A stretch of 64,000 nucleotides of DNA from Gemmatimonadota bacterium (GTDB lineage: Bacteria; Gemmatimonadota; Gemmatimonadetes; Gemmatimonadales; GWC2-71-9), in assembly GCA_029862925.1 (NCBI GenBank), contig JAOTWJ010000004.1:1-64000 (forward strand). The letters run 5' to 3'. Of the stretch, positions 7,439 to 14,161 are shown piece by piece; within the stretch, counting starts at the first letter, position 1; each line of letters opens with the position of its first letter. The notes under the pieces are model-generated. The model did not search any database, was not told where the DNA came from, and worked only from the letters and a program-made list of their open reading frames with translations. The translations under genes and the position numbers were made by a program.

Positions 7439-8353
7439 TCAGGGCGCCGTTTTCTCCCCGGCAATCACCTGGAGTGCCGCCGGCATCACGGTGATCGTCA
7501 CCGTGGCTGCCGGGAACACCTCGCCATCGAGATCGAACGCCGGGAATCCCGGTGCCGGCTCCAGCGTCACGGTTCGGCCGCGACTCGCCCGGACGAACGA
7601 CAGCCGCACATGGGAGCCGCGATAGATCTGTGGGAGTCGGAAGGGCAGCGCCCATCGCGCTACGGGTTGTACCAGCACGACGTCGGCGAGGCCATCGTCC
7701 ACGCGCGCGTCCGGCGCCACCCGCATGCCGCGCCCGAAACACGGCCCGTTGGCCACGGCGACGAGCAGCACCGGTCCGTTGTGCCAGGGCTCGCCGTCCA
7801 CGCTGACCCGACACGGGGCCGGCCGATAGCGGAACACGGCACCCAGCGTCGCCCCGAGGTAGGACAGGGTGGTGCGACGAGGGAGCGCGTTGACCGCCTC
7901 ATCTACCAGCCCCGAGATCCCGGCGGACGCCACGTTCAGCACATGCCGCCGACGGCCGTCCACCGTTTCGAGTCGGAGCACGTCCAGGGGGCGCGCCGCT
8001 CCGTCACAGGCCAGCCGGGCGGCGCGATCGGCGTGCGTCGGGATCCGCAGGGTGCGCGCCAGATCCGAGCCGGTGCCCGCCGGCAGCACCGCGAGGGCCG
8101 GCCGCCGGGCGGCTGGCTGCTCGAGCACGACGTTCGCCACGAGATGCATCGTCCCGTCACCGCCCACGACGAGCACGCGATCGACCGGCTGACGCAGCGC
8201 GTCGGCCAGGGCCGCCGCTGCTCGGTCGCGGTCGGCCACACAGATGACGACGGCGTCGCGCAGCCGCGCCTGCCCGCCCCGCACGGCCTCCCAGACCTCC
8301 GCCGTGCGGCCGCGCCCGGAGCGCGGATTCACGAACACCACTATGCCGCTCAC
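7439..8353 (-). CDS. Diacylglycerol/lipid kinase (DagK/YegS family)
   Basis: VFVNPRSGRGR, VLVVGGDGTMH, LPAGTGSDLARTL; GTG start 8353 overlaps the stop of the upstream glpD-like gene. Confidence 0.88.
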   Translation of the reverse strand: MSGIVVFVNPRSGRGRTAEVWEAVRGGQARLRDAVVICVADRDRAAAALADALRQPVDRVLVVGGDGTMHLVANVVLEQPAARRPALAVLPAGTGSDLARTLRIPTHADRAARLACDGAARPLDVLRLETVDGRRRHVLNVASAGISGLVDEAVNALPRRTTLSYLGATLGAVFRYRPAPCRVSVDGEPWHNGPVLLVAVANGPCFGRGMRVAPDARVDDGLADVVLVQPVARWALPFRLPQIYRGSHVRLSFVRASRGRTVTLEPAPGFPAFDLDGEVFPAATVTITVMPAALQVIAGEKTAP

Positions 8354-9966
8354 CGCACGCCCTCCGGCGTCCACGCCGCCAGCGCCCAGTGGAACGCCTC
8401 CTCCTCGGTATCCCACCGGCCACTCGTCCATCCCAGCTCCTCGGCAAACAGCGGCCGCAGGGTCGGGACGAGTGCCCGCGCCACCTGCGGATTCCACAGT
8501 CCCACCCGCACGCGGCGCAGCAGGAAATCTTCCAGCCGCAGCACGGCACCGAAGCGCAGGTGCACTCGTACCTCCGCCGCCGTGAGGTCGACGTCCTCGG
8601 CGATCGGCTCGAGCTCGCGGGCGTCCCGCGCGAGGCGCGGCACCCACCAAACCAGGGCACGGAGCCGACGGGCCATCGCCGCCGCGATCGGACCCGCCAC
8701 GGCCGTTTCCGCCCGGAGTCGATCGGCGAGGTCGGGCGGCGCCGTGCCCGCGAGCGGCGTACCCTCGGTGTGGCACTGGGCCGCGATCGTGGCCCGGTCT
8801 TCCGGCAGGTGGCGCACCGCCTCGTCCACGACCTCCGCAGCGGTCACCCGCCACGTCGTGAGCTTGCCCCCCGCCACCGACAGCAACCCCCGCTCTTCCC
8901 AGATGTCCTCTTCACGGCTCGCTTCCGAAGGGTTTTCCGCATGCGTGTCGAGGATCGGGCGCAGTCCGGCGAAGGCCCCGACCACGTCCCGCTCCGTCAC
9001 GTCCCGCCCCGGGAACCGTTCGCGTACCGCGCGCAGCAGGTAGGCGACTTCGCCGCGGGTAGCTCGCGGGTCGTCGAGCGGCCCCTCGTGGTAGAGATCC
9101 GTCGTCCCAATCAGGACCCCCTCGGGATGCGGGACCAGAAACACCGGGCGGCCATCGTCGGGCGACGGCAGGGTGACCGCCGCGGCCAGCGGCAGCGTGC
9201 GCCGTGACACGATGACATGCGACCCGCGGGACGGGCGCACGTGGCGTCCGGCCAGTCCGAACGCGTCGCGCACCTTATCGACCCATACGCCCGCGGCGTT
9301 GACCACGACGTGGGCCCGAACCCGGTGCGTGCGCCCGCTCTCCACATCCCGCACCACGACCCCGGCAATGCGCTCGCCGTCGATCAGCGGCTCGAGCGCC
9401 TCGGCCCGGGTCAGCATGAGCCCGCCGAACGCGAACCCCGTGGCCGCCACCGCCAGGGTCAGCGCGGCGTCGTCCGCGACCGCGTCCGTGTACACCATCG
9501 CGCGCTCGAGACCGTCCAGAGAGATCCCCGGTGCCAGCGCGGCCAGTTCATCGGGCGTGATGTGCGTGTGCCGCTGCGGCTGCGTCGTCAGCCGATCGTA
9601 CATCCACAGCCCGAGATCCACGGTCCAGCCCGGCACGCGGTCCGCTTCCAACGCCGGATAGAGAAACCGGATCGGACGGACCAGATGCCGATCAAGCGTC
9701 AGCATGCGGTCGCGCTCGCGACAGGCGAGGCGCGTGATCCGAAACTGCATCTGCTTGAGATAGCGAAGCCCCCCGTGAATCAACTTGGAGGAGCGCGACG
9801 ACGTCCCTGACGCGATATCGTGCCGCTCGAGCAGCAGCACGCGCAGGCCCCGTTGCGCCGCATCCAGCAGAATACCGGCACCGGTGATGCCGCCACCGAT
9901 CACCACCAGGTCGAATAGATCGGTGAGGGACGCCACGGCGCGGGGGCGCCATCCGGCATGGAACAT
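8350..9966 (-). CDS. glpD: FAD-dependent glycerol-3-phosphate dehydrogenase
   Basis: DLVVIGGGITGAGILLDAAQRGLRVLLLERHDIASGTSSRSSKLIHGGLRYL; TTDLYHEGPLDDPRAT. Confidence 0.92.
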   Translation of the reverse strand: MFHAGWRPRAVASLTDLFDLVVIGGGITGAGILLDAAQRGLRVLLLERHDIASGTSSRSSKLIHGGLRYLKQMQFRITRLACRERDRMLTLDRHLVRPIRFLYPALEADRVPGWTVDLGLWMYDRLTTQPQRHTHITPDELAALAPGISLDGLERAMVYTDAVADDAALTLAVAATGFAFGGLMLTRAEALEPLIDGERIAGVVVRDVESGRTHRVRAHVVVNAAGVWVDKVRDAFGLAGRHVRPSRGSHVIVSRRTLPLAAAVTLPSPDDGRPVFLVPHPEGVLIGTTDLYHEGPLDDPRATRGEVAYLLRAVRERFPGRDVTERDVVGAFAGLRPILDTHAENPSEASREEDIWEERGLLSVAGGKLTTWRVTAAEVVDEAVRHLPEDRATIAAQCHTEGTPLAGTAPPDLADRLRAETAVAGPIAAAMARRLRALVWWVPRLARDARELEPIAEDVDLTAAEVRVHLRFGAVLRLEDFLLRRVRVGLWNPQVARALVPTLRPLFAEELGWTSGRWDTEEEAFHWALAAWTPEGVR

Positions 9967-9969
9967 CGG

Positions 9970-11601
9970 TCACGACTCCAGGCGGTCCGTGGGATCGAGC
10001 AGCACGTGCGGGTTGAGGATGCCGGTCGGGTCCAGGCGGCGGGCGGCATCCCCGAGCAGTGCGGCGCCCGCCGGCCCAATCTCGCGCTCGAGCCAGGGCG
10101 CGTGCCAGCTGCCGACGCCGTGATGATGGCTGAGGGTTGCGCCAGCGGCAACAATCGCCTCCGTCGCGGCCCGCTTGAGCGTCGCCCACCGCGCGATCGC
10201 CTGGGCCGGATCCGGCGGACAGCGGAAAAACAGCGTGAAGTAGAGGGAGGCGCCGTCGCGGTACGGGTGCGACACGTGCGCGAGCACCACCACCTGTTCG
10301 TCCTCATGGACCAGCGTGCTCGTGAGCGCCGTTCCCACCGCCTCCCGCACCCGCTCGAGGCGCGCCCACGGCGCGGCCGTCTCAAGCGTGTCGGTCGCGA
10401 CCCCCGCATCGAGCAGCGCATCCCGCAGATACGGGTGGCGGAACCGGTCGCTCAGCCAGCGTCGACCCGGGGTCCGGCCGAGGCCCACGCCGCCGTGCGA
10501 GCGGAGGATCGCCCGCGCGTCCCCGAGCGTCCGCCGCACGGTCGACGGGTCGCCGGCCGCCCCGAGCAGCATCAGGCACCCCCCCTCCCACGCGCCGCGC
10601 GCGGCCAGCCAGCGCCGCACGAGGGTGCCCACGATCCCGCGCCGCGCCAGCCCGAGCGCCATGCCGACGGTCGTCTCGCACTCGTCCGAGAGACGGAGCA
10701 GGGTCAGCGGCACGCCTTCCTGCACCACGTCACGGGCGGCGCTGAGACCCGCGCGCCAAGAGGGCAGCACGGTGCCGGTCACGACGAGCACCGGCGGCCG
10801 ACGTCGCACGCGCACGGTCGCCCGCGTCACGATGCCCAGCCGGCCCTCGCTCCCCGCCACGAGGTGCCGCAGATCGGGTCCCGCGGCGCTCGCGGGCCGC
10901 GCGCCCAACTCCAGCCGCCCGGCGGGCGCGACCAGCGTGAGACCCGCCACCAGCGCGTCGATCGAGCCGTAGCCGAGCGACTCCTGACCGGAGGACCGGG
11001 TGACGATCCAGCCGCCCAGGGTGGACAGCTCCCACGATTGGGGAAAATGGCCGAGCGTGAGGCCGTAGCGCGCGAGGGCCGCTTCGAGCGCGGGACCGCG
11101 GATCCCGGCACCGAACGTGGCGAGCCCCGACTCGCCGTCCACGTCGCCGAGCCCGTCGAGACGCTCGAGGTCCAGCGCGACCACCGGAGTGTCACCGGCG
11201 ACGCTGTTCACACCACCCGTGACCGACGTGCCACCCCCGAACGGGATCGCGCGCACGCCCGCCGCCGCGCAGGCCCGAAGGATCGCCTCCACCTGCGCGT
11301 CGTCGGTTGGGCGCACGACGCCGTCGGGTGCGCTGGTCACGGTGCCGGTACGGAACCGCAGCAGATCCGGGAGTCCCTGCCCGCGGGCGTGCGCGAGCCG
11401 GTCGTGTGGCTCCCGCCCGATTTCGAGGGGGAAGGCCGGCAGCGCGCGAGGGCCCGGGAGACGGACGTCCGGGGGCGTGTCGGCGACGCGGCCGTCGCAG
11501 GGACCGAGCCGATGCTGCAACCACTGCAGCAGGTCCGGGGGCAGCGGATATCGCTCGCCCTCGAATCCCCACCCCCCCACTCGACGCCTGCGATCGGACA
11601 T
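9970..11601 (-). CDS. FAD-binding alkylglycerone-phosphate (alkyl-DHAP) synthase-like oxidoreductase
   Basis: N-term GGWGFEGERYPLP, FAD-binding IPFGGGTSVTGGVN, C-term LSHHHGVGSWHAPWL...LDPTGILNPHVLL resembling ADPS/AGPS; ATG at 11601. Confidence 0.8.
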   Translation of the reverse strand: MSDRRRRVGGWGFEGERYPLPPDLLQWLQHRLGPCDGRVADTPPDVRLPGPRALPAFPLEIGREPHDRLAHARGQGLPDLLRFRTGTVTSAPDGVVRPTDDAQVEAILRACAAAGVRAIPFGGGTSVTGGVNSVAGDTPVVALDLERLDGLGDVDGESGLATFGAGIRGPALEAALARYGLTLGHFPQSWELSTLGGWIVTRSSGQESLGYGSIDALVAGLTLVAPAGRLELGARPASAAGPDLRHLVAGSEGRLGIVTRATVRVRRRPPVLVVTGTVLPSWRAGLSAARDVVQEGVPLTLLRLSDECETTVGMALGLARRGIVGTLVRRWLAARGAWEGGCLMLLGAAGDPSTVRRTLGDARAILRSHGGVGLGRTPGRRWLSDRFRHPYLRDALLDAGVATDTLETAAPWARLERVREAVGTALTSTLVHEDEQVVVLAHVSHPYRDGASLYFTLFFRCPPDPAQAIARWATLKRAATEAIVAAGATLSHHHGVGSWHAPWLEREIGPAGAALLGDAARRLDPTGILNPHVLLDPTDRLES

Positions 11602-11677: not shown

Positions 11678-13156
11678 TCAGCGGATGGGCACCGCCACCG
11701 ACAGTTGATGGGTCCAGACGTGCACCTCCTGCAAGGTGAGCGGGCCGCCTGGCGGCACCACGATGTCGTTCGCAAACCCGGCATCCGCCGCCCGCTCGGC
11801 GACGATGCCCGTCCAGGCGATGCCCGGGCGCCCGGTACCCGTGGTCACGCGCCCAACGTACCGCACCTCGAACCCCGGGAACCGAACGCGCGCCCCCCAC
11901 GTCGGCGTCCACTCCATCCACTGCTCGTCCTGGCGACGGAATTCGTCGGTCACGTTGTCCCACTGGTCCAGATGATAGTCGTACGCGCGCAGTTCGAGGC
12001 CGGCCTGGAAGGCCGCCGGCCCGACCTGCTGCTGGACGCCCATGCGTACCTGCGCGTTGGAGAAGCGGAACTCGTTCTCCACCGTGCGTCCCCCGCTGGG
12101 GATCGTGTCCCCACCCACCGTCGGCACCGGACCCGCCGCTTCGGCCCACGTGCTGCTCCACGCCGGCTCGTAGACGATGTCCATCCCGAAGGTCGTCGCG
12201 CCCTGCTGTTTCGCCACGCCGAGGCCGATGTCGAGCGCCGTGCTGTGCCCCGGGTCGCGCGGGATGTTGACGATCTCGTAGTTCGGGATCTTCGGATGGG
12301 ACTTGTAGTTGCCGGTGAGGGTACCGCCCACCCGCCAGCCGTGCGCCCCGACCGGCCGCCGGAACCCGAGGTGCAGGCCCCACGTGTTGGTCTTGTCCGC
12401 GTTGGTCTCGACGCGTGCCTGTTCCTCCCACTGCCAGGTCACCGAGTCCACCAGCACCCAGTCGACGTAGGTGACGACGTGGGTCGCGTCGAATCGGTTG
12501 TACAGCGCGGTCGCCTCGAGCACGCTCCCGTCGCCGAGCGCCTTGGTCATGCCCAGGCGCACATCCTGCGAGCTGCCCGACTCGTCGATGTCCCGGCTCA
12601 GCGCATAGAGATGCTCGACCCCGTCAATGCCATTAAGGTCGGAGAAGAACGCGCTCACCCCGACGGTGAACCCGGGACCGACCTCCGACCCGAGCATCAG
12701 GAACGCGTACTTGTTCGTGGCCGACTGCTGACTCAGGGCGTTCGGCGGCAGGATGGCGATGTCACGGAGCGGGACCGGACCGAAGAACTGCTCGCCGGAC
12801 TTGAGCTGCTGCAGCGCCACCATGCCACCGCCAAAGGCCTTGCCGCCAAACAGCCCCCCGGCCGTGAGCGTGGTGGCGCTTCCCGCGTTCTGCGACATCG
12901 AGTAGTGCGTCGGCAGCGCGAAGAAACGGGACTCGCCGATCCGGGAGCCTTTGGCGGGGTTCACGAACGGATCGAGCCAGTCGTCGTCGAGTGCGATGGA
13001 CACGCCGCCCATGCCGAGGTTCTGCGACGGGAACACCAGGAACTGATCGCCGGCCGCAACGGGGACGGTCTTCAAGCTGATGTACTGCGCGGCTGCCGGG
13101 GTGGCGGGCAGGAGCGCCACCAGGAGCGCGACCGAGCTAACGAGGGTGCGGGCCAT
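11678..13156 (-). CDS. Outer-membrane beta-barrel-like secreted protein
   Basis: Signal peptide LLPATPAAAQ, alternating beta-barrel-like pattern, aromatic-rich segments. Confidence 0.65.
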   Translation of the reverse strand: MARTLVSSVALLVALLPATPAAAQYISLKTVPVAAGDQFLVFPSQNLGMGGVSIALDDDWLDPFVNPAKGSRIGESRFFALPTHYSMSQNAGSATTLTAGGLFGGKAFGGGMVALQQLKSGEQFFGPVPLRDIAILPPNALSQQSATNKYAFLMLGSEVGPGFTVGVSAFFSDLNGIDGVEHLYALSRDIDESGSSQDVRLGMTKALGDGSVLEATALYNRFDATHVVTYVDWVLVDSVTWQWEEQARVETNADKTNTWGLHLGFRRPVGAHGWRVGGTLTGNYKSHPKIPNYEIVNIPRDPGHSTALDIGLGVAKQQGATTFGMDIVYEPAWSSTWAEAAGPVPTVGGDTIPSGGRTVENEFRFSNAQVRMGVQQQVGPAAFQAGLELRAYDYHLDQWDNVTDEFRRQDEQWMEWTPTWGARVRFPGFEVRYVGRVTTGTGRPGIAWTGIVAERAADAGFANDIVVPPGGPLTLQEVHVWTHQLSVAVPIR

Positions 13157-14060
13157 GAGGGGGTCCTTGCGTCAAAGTGAAAGTCGGGGGAGCACCATTG
13201 GCGCCGACGAGCCGTGGCAGAATGACTTGCAGCCGACTCTCGGCACCCGCGGCGATCAGCACGTCCGGGACGGTGATCGGCCCCAGGCCGGCGCCGGGGG
13301 GCGCGGCGATCTCGACGGTGTAGACGCCGCTCGGGAGAAAGCCAACGAGGTATCCACCCGTCGCGTCCGTCCTCCCTGTCACCCGGAGCGCTCCCGGGTC
13401 GGGCGCGCGGCCGCGAAGCGCGCGAATCGTCGCGAACGCCACCGGACGGGGCGCACCCCCTGCGGTGGCGCCGAACACGCTTCCGGCGAGCCCGCCGGTG
13501 ACCGCCGCGTCAACAGCGCGCAGCTGTGGGATAAACGTGAGATCGAACAGCGGCTCGAAGGCCGCGGTGAAGCTCCGGGTCACGTCCAGATCGAGCACGA
13601 TCACGCTGCCGGCTGGCGGAATCGCCACCGGAGCGGCGACACTCGCCCGGATCGTAAAGGGGTCTGGCGCCGGCCATCGGACCCGGGCCTGGCTCCCGTC
13701 CGCGTAGACGACCGTCGAGGAATCCCCGCGCACTGTCATGCGGACCGCGCGGTACGTACCGGCGGGGAGCACGCCGCTGCCGGCGAGCGCCGTCCGCCCC
13801 TGCTGCAACGCGGCGAAATCGAAGCGGCGCTCGGGCGTGGCGATCGTGATCCAGTCGCCGGCCGTCCCGTCCTCGGTCGTGGACGCCGCCACCGCCGCTA
13901 CGTAGACTTCGACCCGTTCGATGGACCCGGACGAGAGCGGCGCGTCCGTCAGCACGACGCGCGTGAGGCCGGCGCCGGATACGGGTCCCGCCACTTCCCG
14001 GTAGCAGCCCGGAAGCGGGACCGCCACCACCAACACCAAGCTCAGCCAGCGACGCGCCAT
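13137..14060 (-). CDS. DUF4382-like lipoprotein with carboxypeptidase-regulatory-like C-terminal domain
   Basis: Lipobox VPLPGC; VVLTDAPLSSGSIERVEVYVAAV resembles DUF4382; TDATGGYLVGFLPSGVYTVEI; ATG at 14060. Confidence 0.65.
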   Translation of the reverse strand: MARRWLSLVLVVAVPLPGCYREVAGPVSGAGLTRVVLTDAPLSSGSIERVEVYVAAVAASTTEDGTAGDWITIATPERRFDFAALQQGRTALAGSGVLPAGTYRAVRMTVRGDSSTVVYADGSQARVRWPAPDPFTIRASVAAPVAIPPAGSVIVLDLDVTRSFTAAFEPLFDLTFIPQLRAVDAAVTGGLAGSVFGATAGGAPRPVAFATIRALRGRAPDPGALRVTGRTDATGGYLVGFLPSGVYTVEIAAPPGAGLGPITVPDVLIAAGAESRLQVILPRLVGANGAPPTFTLTQGPPHGPHPR

Positions 14061-14161
14061 GCCCTCTCGCCATTTCGTCCACCCGGGATACCCGAGCCGC
14101 CCACCGCGCGTCACAGGTTGGGGCCGGGGGATGGGTGTGACCCGCCGGGGTCGGGACGGGT

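Follow-up and report, generated by a model that had tools for sequence, protein, structure and literature searches.

A widely conserved AGPS-like/GlpD/lipid kinase operon and its possible role in bacterial alkylglycerol ether breakdown

What does a relative of the ether-lipid enzyme alkylglycerone-phosphate synthase (AGPS, also ADPS) do when its gene stands in one operon with genes for a glycerol-3-phosphate (G3P) dehydrogenase and a lipid kinase? The question is raised by a 64,000-nucleotide stretch of contig JAOTWJ010000004.1 from a Gemmatimonadota bacterium, the whole of which is called the window here. The operon consists of three genes:

9970-11601, minus strand: AGPS-superfamily flavoprotein gene (P0001, 543 aa), with a VAO-type FAD domain and FAD-oxidase_C
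8350-9966, minus strand: GlpD-like FAD-dependent glycerol-3-phosphate dehydrogenase gene (P0002, 538 aa), with DAO and DAO_C
7439-8353, minus strand: YegS/DagK-type lipid kinase gene (P0003, 304 aa, GTG start), with DAGK_cat and YegS_C

As an earlier note on this DNA had described, the genes are tightly packed, with a 3-bp gap between the P0001 and P0002 genes and a 4-bp overlap in which the GTG start of P0003 lies on the P0002 stop. The motifs GGWGFEGERYPLP, LSHHHGVGSWHAPW and LDPTGILNPHVLL are found in the window proteins as that note gave them, and its description of the products as ADPS-like, GlpD-like and DagK-like agrees with the domains above and the structural matches below. The operon is real and widely conserved and belongs to a known superfamily; the PA3026-PA3023 set of Pseudomonas aeruginosa, already in print, is another version of it. 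Here, we describe the gene set, its conservation, the clade membership and residue pattern of P0001, and the redundancy of GlpD in this genome, and we infer substrates, a direction and an order of steps for the cassette. Ether-lipid metabolism is the likeliest theme of the operon. Our preferred reading, in which our confidence is evenly balanced, is that the cassette dismantles 1-O-alkyl glycerol ethers, leading from alkylglycerol through alkyl-G3P and alkyl-dihydroxyacetone phosphate (alkyl-DHAP) to a fatty alcohol and DHAP.

The AGPS-like flavoprotein and two kinds of relatives

P0001 belongs to the AGPS/ADPS superfamily by sequence, tree and fold. Its domains are FAD_binding_4 (5.9e-32) and FAD-oxidase_C (1.6e-31), and among solved structures it matches Dictyostelium ADPS (2uuu, 8e-78) and guinea-pig AGPS (4bby, 8e-60) best, with D-lactate dehydrogenase far behind (8e-29). 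When an AlphaFold2 model of P0001 (pLDDT 82, pTM 0.83) was used in a structure search, the first 37 matches were all AGPS chains, ahead of any other enzyme, and the predicted fold gave TM-scores of about 0.85 with mammalian AGPS, about 0.8 or less with the Dictyostelium enzyme and 0.69 with LDHD. Mutagenesis of Dictyostelium ADPS has identified R352, R447 and Y508 as important (PMC3509576); in our alignment their counterparts in P0001 are R303, R393 and Y454, and the His triplet is H492-494. Fold and catalytic Arg/Arg/Tyr/His-His-His are therefore common to P0001 and eukaryotic AGPS/ADPS (EC 2.5.1.26; 4bby, 2uuu), whereas P0001 differs from eukaryotic AGPS in sequence (27-28% identity), in its separate clade, in having Gln188 for Asp303, and in its partners, which are GlpD and a kinase rather than a fatty-acyl reductase (FAR) and GNPAT.

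The phylogenetic check that the earlier note had proposed was carried out with a maximum-likelihood tree of 48 rows, in which the deepest branches lack support and MXAN_1676 of Myxococcus xanthus is not included. All AGPS-like proteins split from the genome's two GlcD-like paralogues with support of 100/100, and the approximately unbiased (AU) test gave p 0.012 against joining P0001 to these paralogues. The tree, the AU test and the predicted fold thus reject P0001 as a glycolate or D-lactate oxidase. A replaced lysine in the HHHGVGK motif had been offered as a clue to altered specificity; this was discarded, as alignment position 621 is variable and is occupied by Tyr in the genuine ADPS of Dictyostelium (HHHGVGYEH).

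Searching 84,980 species genomes yielded 80 relatives, and further ones were taken from plasmid records. Eukaryotic AGPS and Dictyostelium ADPS group with some of the bacterial proteins in a synthase clade (99/98); P0001 lies outside it, and uniting the window clade with it was rejected by the AU test (p 0.003). P0001 instead falls in a clade (100/100) of mostly Thermoanaerobaculia and Holophagae proteins with 56-65% identity, joined (99/97) by a sister clade with members in Pseudomonadota, Chloroflexota, Bacillota and Gemmatimonadota. The FAD loop divides the proteins in the same way. Nine synthase-type rows have Asp (guinea-pig 303, GHxPDS), and the other 94 rows have Gln without exception, nearly all of them in a GHFPQS loop; the Asp303 feature, defined here from those nine rows, is absent from P0001, whose residue is Gln188. 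The His triplet is HHH in P0001, in contrast to HQH in 63 of the 64 rows of the gamma/Chloroflexota group.

Gene neighbourhood follows this split. A GlpD gene lies within 1.5 kb of the AGPS-like gene at 79 of 85 loci in the GlpD-linked group (14/18 in the P0001 clade, 62/64 in the sister clade and 3/3 among actinobacterial relatives), compared with 0/7 synthase-type and 0/6 PEG-type or other loci; four of the six GlpD-less loci in the P0001 and sister clades are contig ends. A chance neighbourhood of the two genes is ruled out because the pairing recurs in dozens of genomes from several phyla.

Known systems represent both arrangements. In M. xanthus MXAN_1676-1674, a bacterial AGPS-superfamily gene stands in a small lipid operon with FAR1-GNPAT and epimerase genes (PMC9131029). 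Four synthase-type loci of the window's own phylum (L096, L097, L098 and L100) are arranged like MXAN_1676-1675, with a FAR-acyltransferase fusion gene nearby and no GlpD, and group with eukaryotic AGPS. P0001 is 31-33% identical to FAR-linked bacterial AGPS (MXAN_1676 itself not being among those compared). At L096 (genome G118; Asp303 synthase type) and L097 (G116) the AGPS-like genes adjoin the FAR-acyltransferase genes, and these are candidate true ether-lipid producers in the phylum. The P. aeruginosa genes PA3026-PA3025-PA3024, with PA3023, encode, like the window, an AGPS-like FAD oxidase, a GlpD homologue and one or more kinases including a YegS lipid kinase, and the PA3026-PA3023 gene order is found in Pseudomonas loci among L047-L093; the window operon differs in having neither an FGGY kinase nor an AraC regulator. 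The actinobacterial glpD-TetR/AGPS-like-YegS cluster (L116, L117) holds the window's three gene kinds but differs in its divergent arrangement, its TetR gene and its separate AGPS clade (100/99). Its layout presumably resembles that of Mycobacterium tuberculosis Rv2249c-Rv2252.

The nearest relatives of P0001 are mostly from Acidobacteriota (56-65%), those in its own phylum being only 45-50% identical, and among 150 genomes sampled from that phylum an AGPS-like match was found in 10, the window's own included. These sequence comparisons suggest that the operon was acquired by horizontal transfer. A very divergent version on a long branch is also present in the phylum (L099:7790-13670, genome G063); it contains FadR_C/GntR regulator, GlpD, AGPS-like and FGGY kinase genes in a changed order, with GlpD first, and is followed by a sulfatase gene.

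The GlpD-like partner and the changing kinase

The nearest solved relative of P0002 is the GlpD structure 3da1 (1e-72). P0002 keeps R68, Y69, H250, R336, R351 and K368, corresponding to R54, Y55, H233, R317, R332 and K354 of Escherichia coli GlpD, which we take to be the residues of the G3P/DHAP site. As these residues are kept, the operon GlpDs should still bind a G3P unit. They form a clade of their own (92/94), apart from the canonical GlpD of the window's phylum, and contain two subclades (100/100 and 100/99) that match those of their AGPS-like partners; on the evidence of these trees, the pair is co-inherited. The clade differs at positions 255 (V to P), 256 (M to V) and 313 (W to F) in E. 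coli numbering. A pocket change that would prove the use of alkyl-G3P was sought, and these differences were too subtle to be conclusive.

The window genome encodes a second, canonical GlpD (C8) and a GlpK (C227) above its equivalog cut-off, and genomes G038, G123 and G063 likewise have a canonical GlpD besides the operon copy. The NCBIfam GlpD cut-off of 360 bits was dropped as a sign that P0002 (300 bits) is atypical, since the canonical copy falls short as well (335 bits).

P0003 has the DAGK_cat and YegS_C domains and the motifs of YegS/Rv2252/BmrU lipid kinases, with NPRSG, GGDGT, PAGTGSD and DLDGE all intact, and scores just under the TIGR00147 cut-off (116.5 against 118.7). The kinase changes from locus to locus: a YegS lipid kinase is present in the Thermoanaerobaculia, Actinobacteria and window operons, an FGGY kinase in 53 related loci, and both in many Pseudomonas. 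One FGGY kinase scored against the GlpK cut-off reached 166 of the 590 bits. Such a non-orthologous swap fits a single common reaction.

Breakdown, synthesis and other readings

The preferred pathway would begin with 1-O-alkylglycerol left from ether lipids after the action of phospholipase C and lipase. P0003 would convert it to 1-O-alkyl-sn-glycerol-3-phosphate, and P0002 would oxidise the C2 hydroxyl to give 1-O-alkyl-DHAP, passing the electrons to quinone. P0001 would then use AGPS chemistry in the cleaving direction: the Tyr base would take the activated C1 proton, flavin N5 would hold the DHAP unit as the fatty alcohol departs, and water (or a carboxylate) would free DHAP (or acyl-DHAP). 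The fatty alcohol would enter beta-oxidation and DHAP glycolysis, and O2 would be needed at no step. Alkylglycerol monooxygenase (AGMO), called the sole known enzyme for alkylglycerol ether cleavage (PMC7911779), would serve the purpose of the cassette but is an unrelated enzyme that needs O2 and tetrahydrobiopterin.

Breakdown is preferred because cleavage of an alkylglycerol by AGPS chemistry needs an sn-3 phosphate (the kinase), a C2 ketone (the GlpD-like enzyme) and an AGPS-type flavin step, whereas synthesis of alkyl-DHAP from acyl-DHAP and fatty alcohol can do without a kinase and without a second GlpD. The GlpD linkage of the P0001, sister and actinobacterial clades, set against its absence from the synthase clade, argues in the same direction. 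A FAR-GNPAT fusion was sought in the window genome (about 90% complete) and none was found, only weak matches to the acyltransferase half and none to the FAR half, though the four synthase-type loci of the phylum adjoin one. The regulators point the same way. A GntR regulator gene lies upstream of the Chloroflexota operons, and in every case tested its product carries a FadR_C domain (E 1e-29 to 1e-39; the match in the L099 regulator is weaker), which suggests that long-chain acyl-CoA is what the regulator senses. GliR, an AraC regulator of P. aeruginosa, activates PA3026-PA3024 together with the YegS kinase PA3023 and the phospholipase C PA3464 (PMC8151288); the phospholipase could plausibly supply (alkyl)glycerides.

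A further argument comes from the polyethylene glycol (PEG) cluster of Sphingopyxis macrogoltabida, where a Gln-type relative (L113) adjoins a glutathione S-transferase (GST) gene; an Aminobacter layout is similar. The PEG-carboxylate dehydrogenase of S. macrogoltabida is known to cleave ethers and has been reported alongside a GST (PMC7299911). The L113 gene probably encodes this dehydrogenase, and one ether-cleaving member of the AGPS superfamily is therefore probably known already. The enzyme assigned by synteny has the Gln signature of P0001 and stands in an ether-degradation cluster; it differs from the window in its PEG-carboxylate substrates, in having Met for the substrate Arg, and in its neighbours (GST, ligase, MFS, TonB and GMC oxidase).

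Several points weigh against breakdown. The direction of the reaction cannot be read from sequence, as every known AGPS catalytic residue is kept in P0001, and the Asp303/Gln split is a signature at the level of sequence. The identity of the L113 enzyme and the PEG-degrading nature of its cluster are deduced from gene content and synteny. An adjacent kinase is present in only 3 of the 18 Acidobacteriota-clade loci, FadR controls fatty-acid synthesis genes as well, and six Alcanivorax-type loci have an acyltransferase gene upstream of the AGPS-like gene, which fits synthesis too. A literature search found no biochemistry or phenotype for any GlpD-linked clade member; deletion of PA3026-PA3024 had no phenotype and left growth on glycerol unaffected, ethers not being tested, and the function of PA3026-PA3023 has been printed as biosynthetic, as an in-silico proposal (PMC8151288).

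In a biosynthetic operon, such as the earlier note had envisaged, the GlpD-like enzyme would supply DHAP, an unlinked acyltransferase would make acyl-DHAP, P0001 would exchange the acyl group for a fatty alcohol to give alkyl-DHAP, and the kinase would phosphorylate a lipid intermediate. The intact catalytic residues, a predicted fold closest to AGPS, the acyltransferase gene beside the operon in Alcanivorax and the proposal of Kotecka et al. 2021 for P. aeruginosa (PMC8151288) all favour this scheme, which we nevertheless consider unlikely: P0001 lies outside the synthase clade and resists being joined to it, Asp303 is replaced by Gln in every GlpD-linked member, and no FAR/GNPAT was found in the genome, which is about 90% complete. 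The ether-lipid theme of the note is supported, its synthetic direction is not. Nor is its proposal that GlpD supplies DHAP for synthesis supported, as the canonical GlpD and GlpK already cover that supply. Moreover, quinone-linked GlpD favours oxidation.

Similarly improbable, in our estimate, is that the cassette makes or breaks down some other 1-substituted glycerol(-phosphate) or glycol ether (a glycoside, short-chain ether, surfactant or PEG-like compound), with P0001 simply dehydrogenating the carbon beside the ether oxygen, for which it would need an external electron acceptor. PEG-type relatives do have the same Gln and HHH motifs, and FGGY kinases usually phosphorylate small polyols; but the P0001 clade keeps Arg393, lost in two PEG-type rows, together with a GlpD with a G3P pocket, which indicates a phosphorylated glycerol unit, and the lipid kinase and FadR_C context indicate long chains. 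That the operon serves ordinary glycerol catabolism and has a D-lactate/glycolate-like oxidase beside it by chance is very hard to sustain. GlpD and the kinase belong to glycerol-pathway families, yet tree and fold set P0001 apart from GlcD/LDHD, and this reading is largely refuted by that tree and by the recurrent linkage across phyla; growth on glycerol is also unaffected by deletion of the P. aeruginosa operon (PMC8151288).

Neighbouring genes and implications

One more gene may share the operon transcript:

11678-13156, minus strand: secreted-protein gene (492 aa, family without Pfam match), on the same strand, 76 bp upstream of the P0001 gene

A scan of this 76-bp gap for a promoter or terminator found no such site and nothing above chance. 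The 492-aa protein has a signal-peptide-like start and is a possible outer-membrane partner of the operon; its gene overlaps that of a DUF4382 protein (13137-14114). Elsewhere, on two unrelated plasmids, fatty-acid-hydroxylase/sterol-desaturase genes (L113:14888-15832 and L119:2674-3609), of what we take to be the superfamily of AGMO, lie near AGPS-like oxidases.

Beyond the window, we hold at somewhat less than even confidence that O2-independent cleavage of alkylglycerol ethers, through phosphorylation by a kinase, dehydrogenation linked to quinone and AGPS flavin chemistry run in reverse, is widespread in Acidobacteriota, the window's phylum, Chloroflexota and Pseudomonadota, with a sister version in Actinomycetota. 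The literature searched gave no relevant match on bacterial alkylglycerol degradation, and O2-free ether-lipid breakdown by an AGPS-like branch is possibly a pathway without earlier description. If the proposal is true, it would put names to the enzymes still missing from alkylglycerol breakdown in bacteria. Metagenomic studies take bacterial AGPS homologues as markers for the synthesis of ether lipids; one such screen has used the M. xanthus Agps as query at 30% identity and E < 1e-30 (PMC11868695), and P0001, given its identity to FAR-linked bacterial AGPS, might pass a marker screen of this kind. Should the GlpD-linked branch prove catabolic, many metagenomic ether-lipid 'producers' would be consumers, and a simple discriminator would be at hand: Gln or Asp in the GHxP[DQ]S loop, together with GlpD or FAR next door.

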